Below are positions 2,699-35,727 of a stretch of DNA of 50,588 nucleotides, piece by piece. Positions within the stretch are counted from its first letter, which is position 1. Each line of letters opens with the position of its first letter. A program made the position numbers and the translations under genes. The notes beneath the pieces were generated by a model. The model was given only the letters and a program-made list of their open reading frames with translations. It had not been told where the DNA came from and did no database searches. The DNA comes from Beijerinckiaceae bacterium. Its GTDB lineage: Bacteria; Pseudomonadota; Alphaproteobacteria; Rhizobiales; Beijerinckiaceae. The DNA lies in NCBI GenBank assembly GCA_025459195.1, contig JALORF010000010.1:1-50588 (forward strand). Reading direction: 5' to 3'.

Positions 2699-4435
2699 AT
2701 GCCTTTCACGATGTCCCGCGCCGCCTATGCGGACATGTTCGGCCCGACCACCGGCGACAAGGTCCGGCTGGCCGATACCGATCTTTACATCGAGGTCGAG
2801 CGCGACTTCACGAGTTATGGCGAGGAGGTCAAGTTCGGCGGCGGCAAGGTCATCCGCGACGGCATGGGCCAGGGCCAGATGACGAACGCTGAGGGCGCGG
2901 CCGACACGGTCATCACCAACGCGCTGATCCTCGACCACTGGGGCATCGTGAAGGCCGATATCGGCATCCGGAACGGACGCATCAGCGGCATTGGCAAGGC
3001 CGGAAACCCCGACATCCAGGCCGGCTTCGGCAATCTCGATCCGGGCCAGACCATCATCATCGGGCCCGGAACCGATGTCATCGCCGGCGAGGGCAAGATC
3101 GTCACGGCGGGCGGCTTCGACAGCCACATCCACTACATCTGCCCGCAGCAGATCGAGGATGCGCTGATGAGCGGGCTGACCACGATGCTGGGCGGCGGCA
3201 CAGGCCCTTCGGCCGGCACCTCGGCCACCACCTGCACGCCCGGCCCCTGGCACATGGCGCAGATGCTGCGCGCCGCCGATTCCTTCCCCATGAACCTCGC
3301 CTTCGCCGGCAAGGGCAATGCCGCGAGGCCCGCAGCCCTGATCGAAATGATCGAGGCCGGGGCCTGCGCCATGAAGCTGCATGAGGATTGGGGCACCACC
3401 CCCGCTGCCATCGACAACTGCCTGAGCGTGGCTGATGACCACGACGTGCAGGTGATGATCCACACCGACACGCTGAACGAGAGCGGCTATGTCGATGACA
3501 CGATTGCCGCCTTCAAGGGCCGCACCATCCACGCCTTCCACACGGAAGGGGCGGGCGGCGGCCACGCGCCCGACATCATGAAGGTGGCCGGGCTCGCCAA
3601 TGTGCTGCCCTCATCGACCAATCCGACGCGGCCCTTCACGGTCAACACGCTTGATGAGCATCTCGACATGCTGATGGTCTGCCACCATCTCGACCCGTCA
3701 ATCCCCGAAGACCTCGCCTTTGCCGAAAGCCGCATCCGCAAGGAGACCATCGCCGCCGAGGACATCCTGCATGATCTGGGCGCGCTTTCGATGATGAGTT
3801 CGGACAGCCAGGCCATGGGCCGCATCGGCGAGGTCATCACCCGCACCTGGCAGACCGCCCACAAGATGAAGGTGCAGCGCGGTGCCCTGCCGGAGGATGC
3901 CGGCAAGGGCAACGACAATTTCCGGGCCAAGCGCTATGTTGCCAAATACACCATCAATCCGGCCATCGCCCATGGTGTCTCGAAGCATATCGGCTCGATT
4001 GCCATCGGCAAGCTGGCGGACCTCGTGCTGTTCGATCCGGCCTTCTTCGGGGTCAAGCCCTCGATGGTGATCAAGGGCGGGTCCATTGCCGCCGTGCCGA
4101 TGGGCGACCCCAACGCCTCGATCCCGACGCCGCAGCCGGTGCATTACCGGCCGATGTTCGGTGCCTTCGGCAAGGCCATGACCGCGACCAGTCTCACCTT
4201 CGTCTCGCAGGCCTTCGTGGCCAATGGCGGGGCCAAAGCGCTGGGGCTGGCCAAGGAATGCGTCGCGGTCGGCAATGTGCGTGGCGGCATCTCCAAGAAG
4301 AGCATGATCCACAATGACGCCACGCCCGACATCAGGATCGACCCTGAAACCTATGCCGTGACGGCGGATGGCGAACTGCTGGTGTGCGAGCCCATGGCCG
4401 TGTTGCCCATGGCGCAGCGGTATTTCCTGTTCTGA
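2699..4435 (+). CDS. ureC: Urease alpha subunit (catalytic)
   Basis: This is the catalytic subunit that hydrolyses urea to ammonia and carbamate at a dinuclear nickel site. At 578 residues it is slightly longer than the 567-residue Klebsiella protein, and active-site numbering is shifted by 9. All key residues are present: His143 and His145 ([10 protein letters not shown]), the carbamylated Lys226 ([10 protein letters not shown]), His255, His281, the flap pair Cys328-His329 (MVCHHL) and Asp369 ([10 protein letters not shown]). The C-terminus MAQRYFLF is typical. A CAGGAG lies 7 bp before the ATG. No ureE, ureF or ureG follows; the next gene is an unrelated protein on the other strand. Confidence 0.98.
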
Positions 4436-6546: not shown

Positions 6547-7445
6547 GCAGGCTGGCTTTCGGTCTGGCTTTCCCGGGCGCGCACGCGCTGCCGGTGCAAG
6601 GTGTAAAGGCCGCTGCCGACAATCAGCCCTGCGCCGGCCAGGGCGGGCAGGTCGGGCCAATCGCCCCAGACCATGACACCGATGATGATCGCAAAGACAA
6701 GCACCGTGTAGCGGAAGCCGGACACCAGCGAGACGTCGGCGTCGCGATAGGCCACGATGATGGCATAATTGCCCAGCGCCACGAACACCGCTGCCGCTAT
6801 CAGGAACAGGGTCGGCTTCAGGTGAAGCGGCTGCCAGACCTCGACCAGACCGATCAGCCAGCCGATCAGGCAGACCATGGCCGTGGTCGAGAAGGTCACC
6901 ACGGTTGACGGGATGTCCGACCCGATCTGCCGTGTCACCAGATCGCGCACCCCCACGAGGATGGCACTGGCCAGGGCCACCAGCGCGTAGATGTTGAAGC
7001 CATCCGCTGCGGGCCTGACGATGACCAGCACCCCGGCAAAGCCCACCACGATGGCCAGCCAGCGCCGCCAGCCAACCCGTTCGATGCCGAGCATGGCGGC
7101 CATGGCCACCACGATCAGCGAGGCGGCCTGCAGGATCGCAGTGATGTTGGCCAGCGGCAGCTTCGCCAGCGCGGTGATGAAGGTGAAGGCGATCAGGCTT
7201 TCAAGCAGCGCGCGTGCTAGAACCAACGGTCGGGCGAGGGCCCTGAGATCGCTGAACTGCCCGAAGGCGCGCACCAGAACGAGCGCGGCCAGCGTGGCAA
7301 ACAGGCCCCGGACGGCCAGAACCTGCCCGGTCGGAAAGCTGCTCGTGGCCAGCTTCACCAGGGCATCGTTGACCACGAACAGCGCCATGGCCGCGATCAT
7401 GGCCCACACGCCGCGCCGGTTGCTGGCAAGCGAGGCCAGGGCCAT
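6543..7445 (-). CDS. EamA/DMT family permease
   Basis: This is a 300-residue protein with about ten membrane helices arranged as two EamA repeats. Characteristic stretches are FVVNDALVKLATSSFPTGQ in the first half and ALGNYAIIVAYRDADVSLVS in the second, the latter close to the ALLAYRYAPAS... region of EamA exporters. Relatives move amino acids, purines or other metabolites outward. The ATG at 7445 has a GAGG 6 bp before it and lies 7 bp after the stop of the flavoenzyme gene. Its own stop overlaps the start of the MFS gene by 4 bp. The three genes thus look like one operon. The C-terminal tail is basic and cytoplasmic. Confidence 0.88.
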   Translation of the reverse strand: MALASLASNRRGVWAMIAAMALFVVNDALVKLATSSFPTGQVLAVRGLFATLAALVLVRAFGQFSDLRALARPLVLARALLESLIAFTFITALAKLPLANITAILQAASLIVVAMAAMLGIERVGWRRWLAIVVGFAGVLVIVRPAADGFNIYALVALASAILVGVRDLVTRQIGSDIPSTVVTFSTTAMVCLIGWLIGLVEVWQPLHLKPTLFLIAAAVFVALGNYAIIVAYRDADVSLVSGFRYTVLVFAIIIGVMVWGDWPDLPALAGAGLIVGSGLYTLHRQRVRARESQTESQPA

Positions 7446-7452
7446 CAGCGCC

Positions 7453-8604
7453 TCATGCCCGTGCAACCGCGGCAAAGCGGGCCAGCCGGAACGGCGCAAG
7501 ATCGAAACGTGTCGCGCCGCTGATGCTCAGATCGGCCATGATCTCGCCGATCACGCTGGCAAACTTGTAGCCATGGCCCGAACAGCAAGAGGCGAAGGCC
7601 ACCTGCTCGGCACCGGGGATGGTGTCGATCACGAAATGCTCGTCGGGCGTCACGGTGTAGATGCAGCCCTTCAGCGCCAGCGCCTCTCCGGTCGCATCCG
7701 GGAAATAGCGCCCGATCGCGTCCTTGAGGAACTGCACCTGCCGGGGGCTGGGCGTGCGGTCTGCTTGCGATGGATCGATCGGCTCGCGCCCGAAATGCGG
7801 ACCGCCGAGCTTGAAACCGGGGTGCTCCCAGAGCGGGAAGCCATAGAAATTGCCTTCCTCGACGGTGAGGATGAACACCGGCAACCGCCCCATGCGGAAC
7901 GGCTCGGGGTTCTTCACCGAATACCAGCCAATGGCCTGTTTGACGGTCTTCAGGTGCGGGGCCAGCGCCGGATTGAGCGTGTCCATCCAAGCGCCGGAGG
8001 TCAGCACCAGCCGGCCTGCGGTGTAGGTGCCCTTGTCGGTCACCACCTTGACCCCGCCATGGGCCGTGGTCGACCATTCCAGCACGGGCTCATTGGTGCG
8101 GATCACCGCGCCGGCTGCCTGCGCCAGCCCGACATGGGCATAGATCGCGCGCTCCGAAGCCACGAAGCCGCCATCGGGCTGCCAGAGCCCGACATGGCCT
8201 TCCGGAAGACGGAAGGCAGGGAAGCGCCGCATGATCTCGGTGCCCGACAGGGTCTCATGCAAGAGGCCGTGGTCGAGGCACGAACGCCGCGAGCTTTCGA
8301 CAAAACCGGCCCCTTCCGCCGCAATGTCGATGGAACCTGTGACGTGCAGCAGGTCGAGCCCGGCCTTGCGGCCCGTCTCGGCCCAGAGTTCGTGTGCCCT
8401 TCGCACCATCGGCACGTATTGCGTGCCTTCGAAATAGGCGAGGCGGATGATGCGGGTCATGCCGTGGGAGGAGCCCATGCCATGGCCGAGATCGAACCGT
8501 TCGAGCCCGAGCACGCGTTGGCCGCGCTGGGCCAGATGCCAGCAGGCCGCCGAGCCCATGCCACCGACGCCGGCAACGATCACGTCATAGCTGTGTTCCG
8601 ACAT
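7453..8604 (-). CDS. FAD-dependent oxidase, monomeric sarcosine oxidase / SolA type
   Basis: This is a 383-residue DAO-fold flavoenzyme. The dinucleotide-binding start is DVIVAGVGGMGSAACWHLA (residues 6-24). The MSOX/MTOX landmarks are all visible: GSSHGMTRIIRLAYFEG (44-60), Cys314 in KGCIYTVTPDEHF, which is the position of the cysteine that binds FAD covalently in this family, and CSGHGYKFASVIGE near the end. The family oxidises N-methyl amino acids such as sarcosine or N-methyltryptophan to the amino acid, formaldehyde and peroxide; substrate cannot be read from sequence. The ATG at 8604 is chosen because the Rossmann motif starts just after it. The frame stays open upstream through a 15-bp tandem repeat, where a TTG at 8673 could also start. 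It heads an operon with two permeases. Confidence 0.88.
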   Translation of the reverse strand: MSEHSYDVIVAGVGGMGSAACWHLAQRGQRVLGLERFDLGHGMGSSHGMTRIIRLAYFEGTQYVPMVRRAHELWAETGRKAGLDLLHVTGSIDIAAEGAGFVESSRRSCLDHGLLHETLSGTEIMRRFPAFRLPEGHVGLWQPDGGFVASERAIYAHVGLAQAAGAVIRTNEPVLEWSTTAHGGVKVVTDKGTYTAGRLVLTSGAWMDTLNPALAPHLKTVKQAIGWYSVKNPEPFRMGRLPVFILTVEEGNFYGFPLWEHPGFKLGGPHFGREPIDPSQADRTPSPRQVQFLKDAIGRYFPDATGEALALKGCIYTVTPDEHFVIDTIPGAEQVAFASCCSGHGYKFASVIGEIMADLSISGATRFDLAPFRLARFAAVARA

Positions 8605-10876: not shown

Positions 10877-11932
10877 TCAGCCGCCAGTGACGCTCATGTG
10901 CCGACCCACGGCGGGCCGGTTGACCTGCCGGTCGATCACGAAATCATGGCCCTTCGGCTTGCGCGCGATCGCCGCTTCGATGGCGGCGTGCAAGGGCGCA
11001 TCGCTCTCGCTCGCCCTGATCACCGACCTGAGGTCTGCGGCATCTTCCTGGCCGAGGCACATGTAAAGCGTGCCCGTGCAGGTCAGCCGCACCCGGTTGC
11101 AGCTTTCGCAGAAATTGTGGGTCATCGGCGTGATGAAGCCGACGAGCCCGCCGGTTTCCGCCACCCGCACATAGCGCGCCGGCCCACCGGTGCGGTAAGG
11201 GTCCTCGGTCATGGTGAAATGGTCGAGCAGGCGCGCGCGCACCACGGAGAGTGGCAGGAACTGGTCGATCCGCGCCGGTTCGATGTCACCCAGCGGCATC
11301 ACCTCGATGAAGGTGATGTCCATTCCGTCGCCATGGGCCCAGCGGATCAGGTCCTCGATCTCGCCTTCGTTGACGCCCTTGAGGGCCACCGCGTTGATCT
11401 TGATGCGCAGCCCCGCCGCCCGCGCCGCCGCAAGCCCCTCGTGAACCTTGGCCAGGTCACCCCAGCGGGTGATCGAGCGGAACTTGTCGGGATCGAGCGT
11501 GTCGAGCGAGACATTGATGCGCTTGACCCCGCAATCGGCCAGTTCCGCCGCATGGCGCGCCAGTTGCGAGCCGTTGGTGGTGACAGTCAACTCCTCGAGG
11601 CCCTGGCCAAGATGCCGGGACAGCGAGCGGAACAGGCTCATGATGTCACGCCGCACCAGGGGCTCGCCGCCGGTGATGCGGATTTTGCGGGTGCCGCGCA
11701 TGATGAAGGCAGAGCCGATCCGGTCCAGTTCCTCCAGCGTCAGCAGATCGCGCTTGGGCAGGAAGTTCATGTCCTCGGACATGCAATAGACGCAGCGGAA
11801 ATCGCACCGGTCCGTCACCGAGATGCGGATGTATTCGATCGTGCGGCCAAAGGGATCGACCAGCGGCGCAAGGCCGGCCTCGTTGCCGGGGGACAACTGC
11901 ATCATGCGTGTTCCTGTCTTCGAGGCAGCCAT
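10877..11932 (-). CDS. moaA: GTP 3',8-cyclase MoaA
   Basis: MoaA is the radical SAM enzyme that turns GTP into 3',8-cyclo-GTP, the first step of molybdenum cofactor synthesis. The 351-residue protein has the SAM cluster motif CDFRCVYC (Cys43, Cys47, Cys50), the glycine-rich ITGGEPLVR, and the second-cluster cysteines [20 protein letters not shown]. It ends in the conserved double glycine (SVTGG), which is needed for activity. The ATG at 11932 is preferred by the normal length of the N-terminus; ATG codons ten residues further in are possible. It is convergent with the chemoreceptor gene and divergent from a DUF971 gene. No other moa gene lies in the window. Confidence 0.97.
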
Positions 11933-12702: not shown

Positions 12703-14397
12703 ATGCAGGCCCGTGTCATGGAACACCCGCTCGAGGTCGGTTCCGGCGAGCGTCGCGATGCCCGTCAGCCGACCGAGCGCATGATCGGGCGCATCGTCGC
12801 CTGCGACGGCTCGCGCGCCACCATTGCCGCTTCCGCCACCAGCCTTGTCGGCACTGCCACCGACTTCTGGTCGATCGGCCGCCTGATCTCCATCAGCATG
12901 GGCCAGACCCGCGTGGTTGGTCTTGTCTGCGAGATGAGCGCCAATGACAGCGCCTGGGACGAGGGCATGCAGAACCACATGCAGGTGCGCATCGAACTGG
13001 TCGGCGAGATCGTCGACCGCAACGATGGTCGCCTCGAGTTCCGGCGCGGCATCAGCACCTATCCCTATCTGGGTGCCATTGCTCACCGCATCCGCATTGC
13101 CGACCTTCTGGCGGTGCACGATCTGGGTGATCGCTCCGCCATCGAGGTGGGCTGGCTCTCGCAGGACAGCAGCATTCCGGCCACGATCTGCGTCGACGAC
13201 ATGCTGCGCTGCCACTTCGCCGTGGTCGGCACCACCGGCGTCGGCAAGTCCAGCGCCGTTGCACTGCTCCTGCGCGAATCGGTCGCCAAGAAGCCCAATC
13301 TCCGGGTTCTGGTGCTCGATCCGCACAACGAATATGCCCATGCCTTCCACGGCATCTCGACCACGCTCGACTCCAACTCGCTGGAACTGCCCTTCTGGCT
13401 GTTCAACTTCGAGGAAATGGTCGATGTCGTTTTCCGTGGCCGGGACGCGGTGCAGGAAGAGATCGACATCCTGCGCGAGATCATCGCCACGGCGAAGGGT
13501 CGCTTCCGCGTCAGCAACGAATCGGCGGCCATGTCGAGCCTGCTGCGCAAGCCGTTCGATGCCTCGAACTTCTCCGCCGATACGCCGGTGCCCTATCGCT
13601 TCGCTGATCTTTACAAGATCATCGACGAGTATCTCGGCCAGCTTGAGCCGCGCTTTGCCCGCTTCCACCTGCGCGCCCTCAAGAGCCGCCTGGAAAGCCT
13701 GTTCAACGACCAGCGCTACCGCTTCATGTTCGGCAAATCCACGGTCGATGATTGCCTTGACCGCGTGATCAGCACGATCTTCCGCATCCCGCACGACAAC
13801 AAGCCGATCAGCATCCTGCAACTGGCCGGCATTCCCTCCGAAGTCGTCAATGCGGTGGTGTCGGTGCTGGCGCGGCTGTCCTTCGATCTCGCCTCGTGGA
13901 GCGGCGGCGGCTTCGAGGTCCTGCTGCTCTGCGAGGAAGCCCACCGCTATGTGCCCCATGACAGGGGCAGCGGCTTTGCACCGACGCGCGCCGCCATCGC
14001 CCGCATCGCCAAGGAAGGCCGCAAATACGGCGCCTATGTCGGCATCGTCACGCAGCGGCCCGGCGAACTCGATCCAACCATCCTGTCGCAGTGCTCGACC
14101 GTGTTCGCCATGCGCCTTGGCAACACGCGCGACCAGGAGATCATCCGCGCGGCCATTTCCGATTCCTCGGCCAGCACGATCGGGTTCCTCTCCTCCATCG
14201 GCAACCGCGAGGCAATTGCCTTCGGCGAGGGCGTGGCCACCCCGATGCGCATCACCTTCCGGGGCCAGAAAGCCCATGAACTGCCTTCGGCCCAGCACAG
14301 CGGCGCGCGCAACCTGCCGGCGGAAGCGGAGAACGGCATCAGCCTGCGCGACATCATCGGCCGCATGCGCGGCGGTGAGGCCACGGAACGGTTCTGA
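12703..14397 (+). CDS. HerA-type ATPase with DUF87 domain
   Basis: This is a 564-residue FtsK/HerA-superfamily ATPase. The first 100 residues form a HAS-barrel-like beta domain (MIGRIVACDGSRATIAAS). The motor has Walker A at 176-184 (GTTGVGKSS), Walker B at 405-416 (EVLLLCEEAHRY), and IAKEGRKYGAYVGIVTQRP, a sensor/arginine-finger-like segment typical of HerA. HerA proteins form hexamers that translocate DNA, classically with the NurA nuclease. No nuclease or SIR2/DUF4297 partner adjoins it, so a housekeeping role is as likely as defence. The ATG at 12703 has AGAGG 7 bp before it. GTG at 12625 and ATG at 12679 are in frame but lack such a site. Two hairpins follow the stop. Confidence 0.88.
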   Translation: MQARVMEHPLEVGSGERRDARQPTERMIGRIVACDGSRATIAASATSLVGTATDFWSIGRLISISMGQTRVVGLVCEMSANDSAWDEGMQNHMQVRIELVGEIVDRNDGRLEFRRGISTYPYLGAIAHRIRIADLLAVHDLGDRSAIEVGWLSQDSSIPATICVDDMLRCHFAVVGTTGVGKSSAVALLLRESVAKKPNLRVLVLDPHNEYAHAFHGISTTLDSNSLELPFWLFNFEEMVDVVFRGRDAVQEEIDILREIIATAKGRFRVSNESAAMSSLLRKPFDASNFSADTPVPYRFADLYKIIDEYLGQLEPRFARFHLRALKSRLESLFNDQRYRFMFGKSTVDDCLDRVISTIFRIPHDNKPISILQLAGIPSEVVNAVVSVLARLSFDLASWSGGGFEVLLLCEEAHRYVPHDRGSGFAPTRAAIARIAKEGRKYGAYVGIVTQRPGELDPTILSQCSTVFAMRLGNTRDQEIIRAAISDSSASTIGFLSSIGNREAIAFGEGVATPMRITFRGQKAHELPSAQHSGARNLPAEAENGISLRDIIGRMRGGEATERF

Positions 14398-15396: not shown

Positions 15397-16119
15397 TCAC
15401 ATCGATGGTCCCTGACCGCGCTCCGACAGCGTGGCCACGGCGCCCACGAGCCCGTCGAAATGCGGGATGACCAGATCGGGCTCCAGGCTCTCGATTGGCA
15501 CGTCCGTGTAGCCGAACGGCACGCAGATCACCGGCAGCCCGGCATTGCGCGCGGTCTGGATGTCGGTGCGTGAATCGCCGATCATGATGGCATGGCCCGG
15601 ATCCCCCCCGGCCGCCGTGATCGTCATGGTCAGGTGGCGGGCATCGGGCTTGAAGAACGGGTAGGTGTCCCGCCCGGCCACCGCGGCGAACCGCGCCGTG
15701 ACGCCAAGCGCATCCAGCAGCAGACGTGAATGCCGCTCGGGCTTGTTGGTGCAGACAGCGAGACGGTGGCCGCTGGCCGCGAGTGCATCGAGCGCCGGCA
15801 GCACGCCGTCATAAAGATGCGACAGGTCGGCCACCCGCCCGGCATAGATGTCGAGAAACAGCGCGAACAGGTCATCGAGCCGCTCCGCTGACAGGGGGCG
15901 GTCATAGAGGCGAAAACCGCGCTCGATCAACGCCCTCGCGCCCGCCCCGACCAGGTCGCGCGCCTTTGACACAGGCACCGGGGCCAGTCCTTCACGCTCC
16001 AGAATGGTGTTCAACGTGCCGATGATGTCAGGTGCCGTTTCGGCCAGGGTGCCATCAAGGTCGAAGACGATGGTCGGGCGTTCGGTCTGGAAGGCAGGGG
16101 GTCTGGTCATGTCGCCCAT
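15397..16119 (-). CDS. gph: HAD phosphatase, phosphoglycolate phosphatase type
   Basis: This 240-residue haloacid dehalogenase-fold phosphatase resembles Gph, which removes 2-phosphoglycolate arising from DNA repair or oxygenase side reactions. Motif I is VFDLDGTLAET with nucleophile Asp20 and Asp22, motif II is the threonine in AVCTNKPERHS, motif III is the lysine in YPFFKPDARH, and motif IV is MIGDSRTDIQTA. The cap (LVGAGARALIERG) is the helical type of Gph. Substrate is assigned by family resemblance only. The start is uncertain between ATG 16119 and ATG 16110, and neither has a strong ribosome site. It is convergent with the tRNA-Val gene, 27 bp away. Confidence 0.87.
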   Translation of the reverse strand: MGDMTRPPAFQTERPTIVFDLDGTLAETAPDIIGTLNTILEREGLAPVPVSKARDLVGAGARALIERGFRLYDRPLSAERLDDLFALFLDIYAGRVADLSHLYDGVLPALDALAASGHRLAVCTNKPERHSRLLLDALGVTARFAAVAGRDTYPFFKPDARHLTMTITAAGGDPGHAIMIGDSRTDIQTARNAGLPVICVPFGYTDVPIESLEPDLVIPHFDGLVGAVATLSERGQGPSM

Positions 16120-16235: not shown

Positions 16236-16463
16236 TCAGCGCTGCTTGACGACGATCGGGGTCAGCAGGTCGCCCCAGAAACCGTCCTCGTGATGGTGCC
16301 GGGCCGAGCGCTGCAATTCGACCGACAGGCCGGAATCAACGGCCTTGATGACGGAGGCGTTCAGGCGGTGCAGATCGTTGGCGAGCATGCGGATGGCCAT
16401 CTTCTGCTCGTCATTCATGCTGGAAGCGAAGCCTTCAGCGCGTTCTTTCACATTGGCCTTCAT
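16236..16463 (-). CDS. Short hypothetical protein
   Basis: This is a 75-residue soluble protein with no family I can name. It is rich in charged residues and appears helical in the first 45 residues (SMNDEQKMAIRMLANDLHRL), followed by a histidine patch (RSARHHHEDG) and a hydrophobic tail (DLLTPIVVKQR). A GAGGAG ribosome site stands 7 bp before the ATG, which together with codon use supports a real gene. It lies between gph and the broken isocitrate lyase gene on the same strand, with a repeat between it and the latter. Confidence 0.7.
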   Translation of the reverse strand: MKANVKERAEGFASSMNDEQKMAIRMLANDLHRLNASVIKAVDSGLSVELQRSARHHHEDGFWGDLLTPIVVKQR

Positions 16464-16538
16464 GGTCTTGTCTCCTCTATGCGCGGGTATGGTGGCCGCG
16501 GTCCGAGTTGGTGGGGCGTGTCGGGGATGGTGCTGGCT

Positions 16539-16623
16539 CTCATCCTGAGCCCTGTTGAAGGATGAGAACCAGTGTCTTGCGCCAGCGGCGGCTTCCCCGC
16601 CCTCAGGCAGGCCCAGGATGAGG
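16539..16623. repeat. Palindromic repeat of the CATCCTGAGC...GAAGGATGAG family
   Basis: A hairpin-like unit CTCATCCTGAGCCCTG/TTGAAGGATGAG occupies 16539-16566. A second, poorer arm (CCTCAGGCAGG then CCCAGGATGAGG) lies near 16600-16623. It sits 19 bp past the end of the isocitrate lyase remnant. The same family occurs at 49411-49571. Confidence 0.65.
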
Positions 16624-16641
16624 AAGCCATGCTGGCTGGTG

Positions 16642-17882
16642 TCATTCGGCGGCCTGGAGCTTCGGCTTGCCGGCGTTGAACTGGTCGGTCTCGGTCGATT
16701 CCTTCATCGCCGTGGTCGACGACTGGCCTGCCGAGATTGTCACCGCCACCTGGTCGAAGTAGCCGGTGCCGACCTCGCGCTGGTGGCGGGTGGCAGTGAA
16801 GCCGCGCTCCTCGGCATCGAATTCGCGCTGCTGCATTTCCGAGTAGGCCGCCATGCCGCGGTCGCGGTAGCCGTCGGCCAGATCGAACATCGACAGGTTG
16901 AGCGAGTGGAAGCCGGCCAGCGTCACGAACTGGAACTGAACGAGGGCGAGCAGTTGTAGGCCAAGAGCTTGCCGGGGTGCTTCTTGTGGACCGCTTCGGC
17001 GAACTTGCGGGCGTCGTCGAGGTCCGGATGCGAGGTTTCCCACCACAGCAGGTCGGCAACTTCGGCGAAGGCCAGACCGCGCTTGATGCAGTGATCAAGG
17101 CCGGTGCCTTCCTTGAGGCGATAGAAACCTTCGGGCGTGCGGCTGTCGGCCTCGATGAACTCGCGGTCGCGCTCGTCGACATCGGAGGTGATCAGGCGGG
17201 CCGATTCAGCATCGGTGCGGGCGATCACCAGGGTGGGCGTGCCCATCACGTCGGCGGCGAGGCGCGCGGCGGTCAGGTTGCGCTCATGGGCTGCGGTGGG
17301 GATCAGCACCTTGCCGCCGAGATGGCCGCACTTCTTTTCCGATGCGAGCTGGTCCTCGAAATGCACGCCCGAAGCGCCGGCCTCGATGAAGGCCTTCATG
17401 ATCTCGAAGGCGTTGAGCGGCCCGCCGAAGCCGGCTTCCGCATCGGCCACGATCGGGGCAAACCAGTCACGCTTGGCGCCACCTTCGGCATGCTCGATCT
17501 CGTCGGCGCGCTTCAGGGTGCGGTTGATGCGGCGGCACAGTTCCGGCGCGGCATTGGCGGGGTAAAGCGACTGGTCAGGATACATGGCCGAAGCGGTGTT
17601 GCTGTCGGCGGCGACCTGCCAGCCGGACAGGTAGATCGCCTTCAGGCCGGCGCGCACCTGCTGCATGGCCTGGTTGCCGGTCATGGCACCGAGCGTGTTC
17701 ACGAAGGGCTCGTTGTGCAGCAGGTTCCACAGCTTGTTGGCGCCGCGCTCGGCCAGCGTGTGGGCGATGGGGAAGGAGCCGCGCAGCTTGGCGACATCCT
17801 CGGGGGTGTAAGGGCGGCGGATGCCGTCATAACGGCCTTCCGGAGCGGATGGGACGAGGTCCCGGAATGTCAGCTTGCTCAT
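16642..17882 (-). pseudogene. aceA: Isocitrate lyase, disrupted by an internal deletion and frameshift
   Basis: Isocitrate lyase splits isocitrate into glyoxylate and succinate in the glyoxylate shunt. Residues 1-315 read normally, including the signature KKCGH (183-187, catalytic Cys185) and NCSPS (310-314). Directly after SPSF the frame is lost, and translation would stop four codons later at residue 319. The C-terminal 97 codons continue in another frame from [19 protein letters not shown] to KPKLQAAE. Relative to family members, about 24 residues (the NWKKN... segment that follows SPSF) are missing, equal to about 70 bp, with the break at 16935-16938. Both the loss of residues and the frame change argue against activity. 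An AAGGA stands before the ATG. A RamB-type regulator is divergent upstream. Confidence 0.9.
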
Positions 17883-17994
17883 CGGCGTGGTTCCTTGCAG
17901 GGCTCATACAGTGGTTTTACAACTTTCGGATAAGACCGGCTTGGTCTGTCTTTTCCGTGCCGTTGCGATGGATTGTGTATGCTGCGCTGCGAAA

Positions 17995-18010
17995 TCTGAC
18001 ACAAGTCAGA
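17995..18010. promoter_or_regulatory. Inverted repeat TCTGAC-acaa-GTCAGA, possible operator
   Basis: This is a perfect 6-bp dyad with 4-bp spacer, 113 bp upstream of the aceA start codon. Its position in the divergent region next to a DNA-binding regulator gene suggests an operator. No footprint is known. Confidence 0.4.
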
Positions 18011-18040
18011 CATTTCCGGGCAAAGGTCTGCATGAGTGTG

Positions 18041-18056
18041 TTTTACTTTTGTAAAA
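18041..18056. promoter_or_regulatory. Inverted repeat TTTTAC-tttt-GTAAAA, possible RamB-type operator
   Basis: This is a perfect 6-bp dyad with the same 4-bp spacer as the one 30 bp to the left. The central ACTTTTGTAAAA is close to the AACTTTGCAAA core reported for RamB in corynebacteria. This is an analogy, as the protein here is a distant homologue. An isolated TTTTAC half-site is also present at 17915-17920. Confidence 0.4.
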
Positions 18057-18103
18057 ATGTATGTATGTAAAAAATGTATGTTCCAGTGGGTTGGACCACG
18101 GCA

Positions 18104-18216
18104 GTCATCTCGGCCTTGAGCCGGGATCAGGTTCGTCCGCGTGGGCGGTCGGGAGCAGGTTGTGGCCGGTTGGGAGCGTGGCGCGCCGGGTGATCCCGGC
18201 TCAAGGCCGGGATGAC
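18104..18216. repeat. Dispersed extragenic palindromes, two copies
   Basis: Copy one, 18104-18129, has GTCATCTCGGCC and TTGAGCCGGGATCA. Copy two, 18191-18216, is TGATCCCGGCTCAAGG with CCGGGATGAC and is close to the reverse complement of copy one. They lie as an inverted pair 61 bp apart. Confidence 0.75.
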
Positions 18217-18255
18217 GGCGACTTGACCCATTGGTCCGAGTCGCAACGTCGCCCC

Positions 18256-18304
18256 CGACTGCCGACTGCCGACTGCCGACTGCCGACTGCCGACTGCCGA
18301 CTGC
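18256..18304. repeat. Seven perfect 7-bp tandem repeats (CCGACTG)
   Basis: The heptamer CCGACTG, equally read as CGACTGC, is repeated seven times without a mismatch. The array ends 43 bp before the start codon of the RamB-type regulator. Such a short perfect array is prone to slippage, so copy number may differ between strains. Confidence 0.92.
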
Positions 18305-18347
18305 CCACCATGGAACAACAATGACCAATCCCGGAGGCGAATGAGCG

Positions 18348-19799
18348 ATGTCGGATGAATCGGGGCGGAAAATCCTGGCCGGGGCGCGCCTGCGGCGGCT
18401 GAGGCGCGAACTGGCGTTGTCGCAGACCGCGATGGCCTCCGAGCTTGGCATCTCGGTGTCGTATCTCAACCTGATGGAGCGCAACCAGCGCCCGGTCACA
18501 GCGCAGGTGCTGATCCGGCTGGCCGAGGTCTATGATGTCGATCCGCGCTCCTTCGCCCGCGAGGAGGAGTTGCGGGCCGCGAGCGAACTGGAGGAGGTGT
18601 TCGCTGACCCGCTGTTCCGGGCCGCCCCCGTGCCGCGTACCGAACTGCGCGAGGCGGCCGATGTGGCCCCCTCGCTGGTCAGCGCCATCCAGCGGCTCTA
18701 CCGCGCCTATGTCGAGACCCGCGAGAGCGGCGAGGGCGGGTTTTCCGACAATGACCGCGGTGAGGGCATCCAGCGCGGCGAAGGCGGGCAGGGGGCCCGC
18801 GAGAACCCGGTCGAGCGGGTGCGCGATTTCCTGCACGCTGCCTATAACCATTTCCCCGAAATCGAGGACCTGGCCGAGAGGATGGCGGGCGAACTGGCCG
18901 CCACCGGGCATGAGCTGTTCTATGCCCTGAGCGAGCGGCTGCGCGAGCGGCATGGCATGCGCCTTCAGGTGCTGCCGGTGGATGTGATGAGCCAGGCGCT
19001 GCGCCGTTTCGACCGCCACCGCAAACGCATCATGATCTCCGAACTGGTCGAGCCGTCGGGCCGCACCTTCCAGGCGGCCTATCAACTGGCCTTCATCGAG
19101 GCCAACGACATGATCGATGCCATCGCCGCCCGGCTCGATCCGACGCAAGGGCCGATGCGCCGTCTGCTGCGCATCACGCTTGGCAACTATTTCGCCGCCG
19201 CCCTGATGATGCCCTATGCCCGCTTCCTGCAGGCGGCAGAGGCGCTCGACTATGACGTGGAGGTGCTGAGCGCCCGCTTCAATGCCAGCTTCGAGCAGGT
19301 CGCCCATCGCCTGACCACGCTGGCCCGACCCACGGCGCGCGGCGTGCCGTTCTTTCTCGTGCGCGTCGACAATGCCGGCAATGTCTCCAAGCGCTTCTCG
19401 TCGGGCAGTTTCCCGTTCTCGCGCTTTGGCGGCACCTGCCCGCGCTGGAACCTGCACCAGACCTTCCGCTCGCCGGGGCGCATCGTCACCCAGATCGTTG
19501 AATTGCCCGATGGCGCGCGCTGGTTCTCGGTGGCGCGCACGGTGCGCCGCACCGCATCGCCCTGGGGCGAGCCGGAAGCGCAGTTCGTGATCGGGCTGGG
19601 CTGCGAACTGAAATATGCCAGCCGGCTGGTCTACTCGCGCGGGCTTGACCTGAAGGCTTACGAGCCGACGCCCATCGGCATCAACTGCCGCCTGTGCGAG
19701 CGCCCCAACTGCTCCCAGCGCGCCGCCCCGCCACTGCTGCGCACGTTGCAGATCGACGAAAGCATCCGCGGCATCAGCCCGTTCGACTTCGAGGCCTGA
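18348..19799 (+). CDS. XRE-family regulator of acetate/short-chain fatty acid metabolism (RamB-like)
   Basis: This 483-residue regulator has three parts. Residues about 10-70 form an XRE helix-turn-helix (LRRLRRELALSQTAMASELG, then SVSYLNLMERNQRPVTAQVL). The middle (about 170-300) resembles the IrrE-like domain, and the C-terminal DUF2083-type domain carries the conserved cysteines of GGTCPRWNLHQTF and GINCRLCERPNCSQR. This layout is that of RamB, which controls isocitrate lyase and acetate genes in corynebacteria and in Paracoccus, where it senses acyl-CoA-related signals. Its divergent placement from aceA fits. A glycine- and glutamate-rich insert (ESGEGGFSDNDRGEG) lies between the first two parts. 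The gene is intact although its presumed target aceA is broken. Confidence 0.9.
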   Translation: MSDESGRKILAGARLRRLRRELALSQTAMASELGISVSYLNLMERNQRPVTAQVLIRLAEVYDVDPRSFAREEELRAASELEEVFADPLFRAAPVPRTELREAADVAPSLVSAIQRLYRAYVETRESGEGGFSDNDRGEGIQRGEGGQGARENPVERVRDFLHAAYNHFPEIEDLAERMAGELAATGHELFYALSERLRERHGMRLQVLPVDVMSQALRRFDRHRKRIMISELVEPSGRTFQAAYQLAFIEANDMIDAIAARLDPTQGPMRRLLRITLGNYFAAALMMPYARFLQAAEALDYDVEVLSARFNASFEQVAHRLTTLARPTARGVPFFLVRVDNAGNVSKRFSSGSFPFSRFGGTCPRWNLHQTFRSPGRIVTQIVELPDGARWFSVARTVRRTASPWGEPEAQFVIGLGCELKYASRLVYSRGLDLKAYEPTPIGINCRLCERPNCSQRAAPPLLRTLQIDESIRGISPFDFEA

Positions 19800-33766: not shown

Positions 33767-35269
33767 TCAGGCCTTGCGACCCGCCAGCTTCATGACCACG
33801 GGCGCGAGCACGCAGGCGATGGAAATCGCCAGCAGCAGGGCCGTCACCGGCCTTTCCCACAGGAAGGCGAACGAGCCGTCATTGACCAGCAGCGCCCGGC
33901 GCAGGTTCTCCTCCAGCAGCTTGCCGAGCACGAAGCCGAGCAGCAGCGGGGCCATCGGATAATCGAGCAGCCTCAGCCCGATGCAGACCACGCACAGCCC
34001 GATCATCAGCCACAGGTCGAAGGTGTTGAACGAGACGAGGAAGACGCCGACCAGGCAGAAGAAGGCGATCAGCGGCGACAGGATCTGTTCCGGAATGGCC
34101 AGCGTCCGCGCAATGTAGGGGATCAGCGGCAGGTTGATCACGAGAAGGATCAGGTTGCCCAGATACATCGAAACGACCACGGTCCAGAACATCGCCGACT
34201 GGTCGACATAGAGCCTGGGGCCGGGTTGCACGCCCAGCGCCACCAGCGCGCCGAGGATCACCGCCGTGGTGCCGGAGCCCGGAATGCCGAGCGTCAGCAG
34301 CGGCACATAGGCCCCGCCGGCAGCGGCGTTGTTGGCCGTTTCCGGAGCGGTGACACCGCGCCGCGAGCCCTTGCCGAACTCCTCGCGGCGCTTGCCGGTG
34401 GCAAGGTTGCGCTCCACCGCATAGGACATGAAGGCCGCGATCGTCGCGCCCGCGCCAGGCAGAACACCCACGACGAAGCCGAGCACCGACGAGCGCGCCA
34501 TGGTCGGGGCCACCTCGCGGATGTCATCGGCGGTGAGCTTCAGAGAACCGACATCGCCGCGCGCCGCTTTCTTGGCTTCTTCGCTGACCTTTTCATTGCG
34601 CAGGGCGGCGAGAATGGCTTCCGAGAGCGCGAAGGCCGCCATGGCCAGCAGCACGAAGGAGAGCCCGTCAGCAATGTCGCGGATGCCGAACGTGTAGCGC
34701 TCGACGCCATCCGCCACATCGGTGCCAACCGTGGCCAGCATCAGCCCCACCACGGTCATCAGCAGCGCCTTGATCACCCCGCCGCTTTCGGTGAAGGCGG
34801 CCACGGCGGTCAGGCCAAGCACCATCAGCGCGAAGTATTCCGGGGCCTGGAAGGTCAGCGCCCAGCTTGCCAGCGTGGGGGCGGCGAGCATCAGCAGCAG
34901 CGTCGCCACCGTGCCGCCGACGAAGGAGCCCCAGGCGCACAGCGCCAGTGCCCGCCCGGCCTCGCCGCGCTTGGCCATGGGGTAGCCATCGAAGGTCGTG
35001 GGCACGGAACTCGACTCGCCCGGCGCATTGATCAGCACCGAGGCGGTCGAGCCGCCGAACATCGCGCCGTAATAGATCGAGGCCAGCAGCACCATGGCCG
35101 AGGCCGGCTGCATGGTCAGCACCACCGGGATCAGCAGTGACACCGCGGTCACCGGCCCGAGCCCCGGCATCATGCCGATGAAGGTGCCGAGGATGCAGCC
35201 CATCATCAGAAGCCCGATGTTCATCGGGGTCATCAGGCCATAAAGGCCGGTGAGCAAGCCTTCGATCAT
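33767..35269 (-). CDS. tctA: Tripartite tricarboxylate transporter, large permease TctA
   Basis: TctA is the large membrane subunit of a TTT-type secondary transporter that takes up citrate or other carboxylates using a periplasmic receptor. The 500-residue protein has about twelve helices and the conserved glycine-rich signatures GMMPGLGPVTAVSLLIPVV near the start, and GFVVGVLPGAGATIAAFMSY and LLTLGIPGSGTTAVILGAL in the middle. Its ATG overlaps the end of tctB by 4 bp, so the pair is translationally coupled. It is the last gene of the tctCBA operon. The substrate is unknown. Confidence 0.96.
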   Translation of the reverse strand: MIEGLLTGLYGLMTPMNIGLLMMGCILGTFIGMMPGLGPVTAVSLLIPVVLTMQPASAMVLLASIYYGAMFGGSTASVLINAPGESSSVPTTFDGYPMAKRGEAGRALALCAWGSFVGGTVATLLLMLAAPTLASWALTFQAPEYFALMVLGLTAVAAFTESGGVIKALLMTVVGLMLATVGTDVADGVERYTFGIRDIADGLSFVLLAMAAFALSEAILAALRNEKVSEEAKKAARGDVGSLKLTADDIREVAPTMARSSVLGFVVGVLPGAGATIAAFMSYAVERNLATGKRREEFGKGSRRGVTAPETANNAAAGGAYVPLLTLGIPGSGTTAVILGALVALGVQPGPRLYVDQSAMFWTVVVSMYLGNLILLVINLPLIPYIARTLAIPEQILSPLIAFFCLVGVFLVSFNTFDLWLMIGLCVVCIGLRLLDYPMAPLLLGFVLGKLLEENLRRALLVNDGSFAFLWERPVTALLLAISIACVLAPVVMKLAGRKA

Positions 35270-35727
35270 GACCAGATCCGTTCAAAGACGCCCCAGTCCA
35301 GCTTCACGTCGAGCAGGCTGAACATGACCCAGAAACCGAGCGAGACACCGAGCGCCACCAGCCCCAGCACCAGCGGCCGGCGCTCGCCCAGCGCCCAGAA
35401 GCCGCCCGCAAGGAACAGGGCCGAGGTGACGACGAAACCAAGATGGTTGATCGCCAGCGCATAGAACGCCATCAGCCCGATCAACCCCAGTGCGCGCCCC
35501 CACGAGAACCCGGCGGCACCGACCGGCGCGCCCTCCGGCGGGCGCACCAGCAGCACCAGCGAGAGAGCCATGCCAAGCGGCCCCAGCATCAGCGGGAAGC
35601 TGCGCGCCGAAAACGGGCTGTCATCGGAGGAGGGCGGTGCCTTGATCCCGAAAGCCAGCACGAAATAGCCCAGCGAGAACAGCAGGATCGCCAGCGCCGC
35701 CAGCCGTTCGCCCTGGGTGCGGGTCAT
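35266..35727 (-). CDS. tctB: Tripartite tricarboxylate transporter, small permease TctB
   Basis: This 153-residue protein has four predicted membrane helices, the normal size and form of TctB. The first helix LAALAILLFSLGYFVLAFGI is followed by SARSFPLMLGPLGMALSLVL, the conserved part. The final helices carry HLGFVVTSALFLAGGFWALG. It sits between tctC and tctA and overlaps tctA by 4 bp. A 170-bp gap with three tandem hairpin-forming repeats separates it from tctC upstream. Confidence 0.92.
   Translation of the reverse strand: MTRTQGERLAALAILLFSLGYFVLAFGIKAPPSSDDSPFSARSFPLMLGPLGMALSLVLLVRPPEGAPVGAAGFSWGRALGLIGLMAFYALAINHLGFVVTSALFLAGGFWALGERRPLVLGLVALGVSLGFWVMFSLLDVKLDWGVFERIWS

Follow-up and report, generated by a model that had tools for sequence, protein, structure and literature searches.

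The closest described counterparts of the gene considered here are the isocitrate lyases of the AceA family (NF011645, TIGR01346 and PF00463, with solved chains such as 1igw), which it matches over residues 14-316 and over the last ~88 residues. Unlike members of this family, it is devoid of 23 codons plus one base, and its frame changes at that point. As for the control of such genes, Paracoccus denitrificans harbors a ramB, malate synthase, icl arrangement, and its RamB protein is bound by intermediates of the ethylmalonyl-CoA pathway, according to the study describing it (PMC10370305). Compared with this module as presented there, the locus under study is similar in that a RamB-like gene lies divergent from, and adjoining, a glyoxylate-cycle gene. 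In contrast, the neighboring gene is here aceA alone, malate synthase is encoded elsewhere, and the regulator falls under the RamB cut-off. Moreover, no crotonyl-CoA carboxylase/reductase (Ccr) was found here, so that the ethylmalonyl-CoA signals to which RamB reportedly binds in P. denitrificans should be absent, and the RamB-like protein of this group should therefore respond to another signal.

The window, i.e. the whole 50.6-kb stretch of DNA analyzed, is an entire contig (C34) of a draft genome of 3.23 Mb (3,226,408 bases in 253 contigs, with a completeness of 96.7% and a contamination of 1.3%). It carries aceA on the minus strand (16642-17882), recognized by NF011645 and BLASTN as two parts in two frames, with no full-length isocitrate lyase match in a single frame. 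The N-terminal part (16935..17882, minus strand) encodes isocitrate lyase residues 1-316, and its open frame continues to 16923. Taken alone, it scores 541.5 bits against NCBIfam NF011645 over residues 14-316, below the cut-off of 562, and passes that of TIGR01346 (402 for a cut-off of 275.9). This first frame is 319 aa long, stopping three residues after the family match, and contains both the KKCGH loop and the NCSPSF stretch, which we take to have roles in isocitrate lyase. The C-terminal part (16642..16938, minus strand) consists of about 97-98 codons and a stop in the other frame, covers profile positions 342-429, and aligns with solved lyases at about residues 341-429. That both parts derive from a single gene is unmistakable and well beyond what chance would give. 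The identification as isocitrate lyase made in the original prediction is borne out by the NF011645 match on both parts, and so is its claim that 97 C-terminal codons are preserved in another frame; residues 1-315, which it held to be preserved, are indeed so, the match in fact extending to residue 316.

At the junction between the two parts (16935..16938, minus strand), the gene lacks 70 bases that relatives have, and one base is common to both sides. In BLASTN against the closest relative (L034), identity is 93.7% over query positions 1-946 and 95.2% over 946-1239, and query base 946 is aligned both with subject position 10946 and with position 11016: the window thus has exactly 70 bases fewer, where a break of about 70 bp had been announced. 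An alignment with six relatives gives the same gap, which is unique to the window. The missing stretch, located between NCSPSF and FQFVTLAG, amounts to 23 codons plus one base; its absence after NCSPSF had been seen correctly, and only its size, then put at about 24 residues, needs correction. The break is confirmed as described in the draft sequence, with its junction well inside the contig. In all 80 named relatives' loci fetched with the N-terminal part, the aceA frame is unbroken (426-437 codons), these loci being the best 80 of 544 confirmed matches as ranked by that same part, so that breaks located there could be under-represented among them; 37 of the 80 have MAG in their record titles.

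The surroundings of aceA are those of an acetate locus, the gene being flanked by two acetate regulators, both of them whole in the window. Immediately downstream, a 75-aa gene (16236..16463, minus strand) codes for an acetate metabolism repressor of the SMc00767 family (NF050174 over cut-off). On the other side, the ramB-like acetate regulator (18348..19799, plus strand; 483 aa) is divergent from aceA and reaches 442 bits against NF038139, for a cut-off of 700. The region between aceA and ramB (17883..18347) contains a conserved stretch also found in G049, G056, G062 and G080, four relatives, and a phosphoglycolate phosphatase-like gene (15397..16119, minus strand) and a cytochrome P450 gene (21472..22998, plus strand) serve as landmarks of the locus. 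Ahead of ramB, the window also contains seven tandem copies of a seven-base unit (18257-18305) that are absent from the same four relatives in the alignment.

Does the gap belong to the genome, or to the draft? Cooley and Wright (2024; PMC11017572) report that assembly errors account for many of the frameshift pseudogenes of public assemblies, and that such errors are commoner at low coverage. The present draft resembles the cases described there in showing several clean frame breaks in genes that are otherwise conserved, and differs from them in that its indels are mostly of 8-109 bases. A control sample of 423,075 of the 3,226,408 draft bases, in 43 stretches of which 11 are all N (30,590 bases), was compared with about 1.27 Mb of the relative G056, breaks being detectable in this way only in genes at least 65% identical. 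Frame breaks were recorded in 7 of the 109 genes compared, and six of these were retained, the break in a ubiquinone hydroxylase gene (L259) having been dropped, as the G056 frame begins about 94 codons ahead of the family match. Besides the 70 bases of aceA, the breaks concern an oligopeptide-type permease (1 base, with the first 131 residues unmatched), an Hsp20 gene (109 bases), a phasin gene (35 bases), hisH and cytidylate kinase. The hisH gene on L254 (G000:C13, G000 being this draft) has both an internal net 38-base gap at about 12827-12835 and an exact 76-base tandem duplication at the gene end (13235-13386), this exact copy being plausibly the product of a misjoin. In the cytidylate kinase gene (189-801) of the same contig, a gap of 8 bases with respect to G056 causes a split into two frames, and this split copy is the sole one found in the draft. 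CMP kinase is required by most bacteria, so that this break, at least, should be false. Breaks comparable to that of aceA are thus found elsewhere in the draft, including in a gene that is probably essential.

The rate of such breaks does not significantly exceed the one seen in other drafts (6/108 vs 2/64 genes in stretches of six other drafts, sampled mostly around aceA; Fisher p = 0.71). Within the window itself, aceA is the sole two-frame gene among 27 compared with G049. Four other rows of this comparison were odd, three with stops and one short at the end; 33773-35503 and 6564-7604 were rejected as broken genes, their stops falling in doubtful upstream extensions.

Selection on aceA was considered along its own branch, where codon changes numbered 37 silent and 3 replacing; the corresponding figures for the G049 branch are 43 and 3 (Fisher p = 1.0). 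The neutral share of the window's aceA branch is at most about 5-6% (one-sided 95%, for an assumed site ratio of 2.5-3). Relative to the G049 branch, there is consequently no sign of relaxed selection, in line with the earlier statement that the rest of the gene shows no decay, and since a very recent break would leave none either, this one is either very young or not real.

Taken together, breaks in about 5% of the genes compared, at least one of which affects a gene that the cell could hardly do without, and the absence of any trace of relaxed selection lead us to consider an error of this fragmented draft as the most likely origin of the 70-base gap, and we infer that its clean frame-breaking indels, that of aceA included, are false. 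In the cell, aceA would probably be whole, encoding a normal isocitrate lyase for the glyoxylate shunt, and would sit between the acetate repressor gene and the divergent RamB-like regulator. The original prediction left the choice between a recent event and an assembly artefact level; both options are kept here, but the control sample tilts the balance towards the artefact. The weights given to this and to the three other readings below are judgements and were not computed.

Several points count against a draft error: the break rate in the sample is not significantly raised, aceA stands alone as a two-frame gene among the 27 compared in the window, the draft has no second aceA allele, and the junction has neither a repeat suited to a misjoin nor a strong hairpin that would account for the error. 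Only one base is shared across the junction, and no repeat or overlap that would explain a misjoin was found there, nor at a 70-base spacing. Folding lends no support to a dropout caused by a hairpin at aceA, as 80% of 300 random stretches were more stable than the aceA segment. The same comparison gave 4% at the hisH place and 5% at the cytidylate kinase place, which both fold strongly, as opposed to 65% and 91% at the Hsp20 and phasin places, which do not, so that no single cause fits all the breaks. A further point is that the group does contain a case of aceA loss, if the gene order of the relative G070 is read by parsimony (see below).

A real and very recent 70-base deletion that inactivated aceA is the main alternative, although an unlikely one. 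Slippage between short direct repeats, which had been put forward as its cause, can be rejected: no direct repeat of at least 9 bases was found in window positions 16850-17060, and in a relative, where two families of direct repeats were found, the spacings are 33 and 99 bases instead of 70, leaving the single shared base. A deletion would be consistent with the clean junction well inside a 50.6-kb contig and with the fact that the group loses the gene elsewhere. It would also agree with the draft's content in acetate routes. No second isocitrate lyase was found in the draft, the only PF00463 match besides aceA being a 292-aa protein on C247 that most resembles methylisocitrate lyase (283 bits, for a cut-off of 354) and was rejected on this ground. 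Nor was any Ccr (TIGR01751) found over cut-off. Of the bypasses named in the original prediction, a second aceA and the ethylmalonyl-CoA pathway, neither is thus at hand, and its conclusion that the break would cost this route of acetate use in their absence holds: if real, the break would remove both routes. The malate synthase it also mentioned is present, as a single malate synthase A on C84, a contig separate from that of aceA. An organism with the deletion would be left without the glyoxylate shunt and, lacking Ccr, without the ethylmalonyl-CoA pathway, so that acetate could be burnt but would be insufficient alone for growth, while malate synthase would handle glyoxylate of other origin. 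Against a real deletion stand the absence of relaxed selection on aceA, the similar breaks at cytidylate kinase and hisH in the same draft, and the wholeness of the neighboring regulators. Read literally, the break would suggest that this organism is unable to grow on acetate, which is probably false.

To what extent does the wider group depend on aceA? The genus sample comprises 67 genomes, of which the nearest, from another species, shows an identity of about 93% over three marker genes. Window-type aceA occurs in 6 of the 67, the window's own included, all of 3.2-3.9 Mb, and a more distant PF00463 protein occurs in some large-genome members (G002, G016, G024 and G055). Ccr, counted in 61 of the genomes, is found in 52 and absent from G000, G002, G046, G049, G056, G059, G062, G070 and G075; none of the five aceA-bearing genomes in this Ccr sample has it, G080 being outside that sample. 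G046, G070 and G075 have neither window-type aceA nor Ccr, and their PF00463 matches are short, like those of PEP-mutase relatives. Malate synthase, for its part, is present in 65 of the 67 genomes. An unrooted three-gene tree groups G000 with G046 and G049 (support 100), and G070 with G062 and G080 (support 100), two deeper nodes having support of 49 and 54.

In G070, a single contig spans the phosphatase gene, thiE, thiM and the P450 gene, and the repressor gene, aceA and ramB are missing between them (L222, G070:C63, about 16472-17006, flanked by the thiamine genes and the P450 gene); none of the three was detected at E 0.01 in its 19.6-kb stretch. The three genes are present in both of its sisters, G062 and G080, and the gene order in G056 is repressor, aceA, ramB, P450. 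By parsimony, G070 represents a true loss of aceA together with both acetate regulators. The situation differs in G046, where contigs end on both sides of the locus, with the repressor at the end of one, in G059, where they end inside aceA and inside ramB, and in G062, where one ends inside ramB; these contig ends say nothing about loss, and G046 is accordingly unproven as a second true loss. In G080, about 77 bases are missing from ramB (L226, G080:C13, 966-2319) and its frame changes, next to a whole aceA; this may be due either to error or to decay. It is tempting to see in the small-genome Bosea branch, in which no Ccr was found, a repeated loss of the glyoxylate shunt, with a clean loss in G070, a broken ramB in G080, and the present genome at a first step (aceA cut, with malate synthase, the control region and both regulators whole), but we regard such a scenario as doubtful. 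These relatives, one of which appears truly devoid of aceA and of the two regulators, would provide a usable case for studying how bacteria give up acetate assimilation.

It is far less probable that the source population was a mixture of cells with a deleted and a whole aceA, from which the assembler kept the shorter path. The relatives' contigs that end in or next to aceA and ramB (G046, G059, G062) might reflect such an effect of strain mixture, whereas in this draft no second allele came to light. Finally, that the two parts might still yield a working enzyme, through frameshifting or as two chains, can be set aside almost entirely despite the conservation of both, given that 23 codons are wholly missing beyond the frame change, that the first start codon of the C-terminal frame lies upstream in sequence of an unrelated frame, and that the gene is in a single frame in all 80 relatives fetched.

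A draft error thus remains the preferred origin of the gap, and a break seen in an individual gene of this draft calls for reads before it is taken as biology. Elsewhere in the window, an Rfam match to the 5' ureB small RNA family was recorded on the minus strand (2851-3161; 120.6 bits). This family is known from Helicobacter, and the match may reflect conserved coding sequence.
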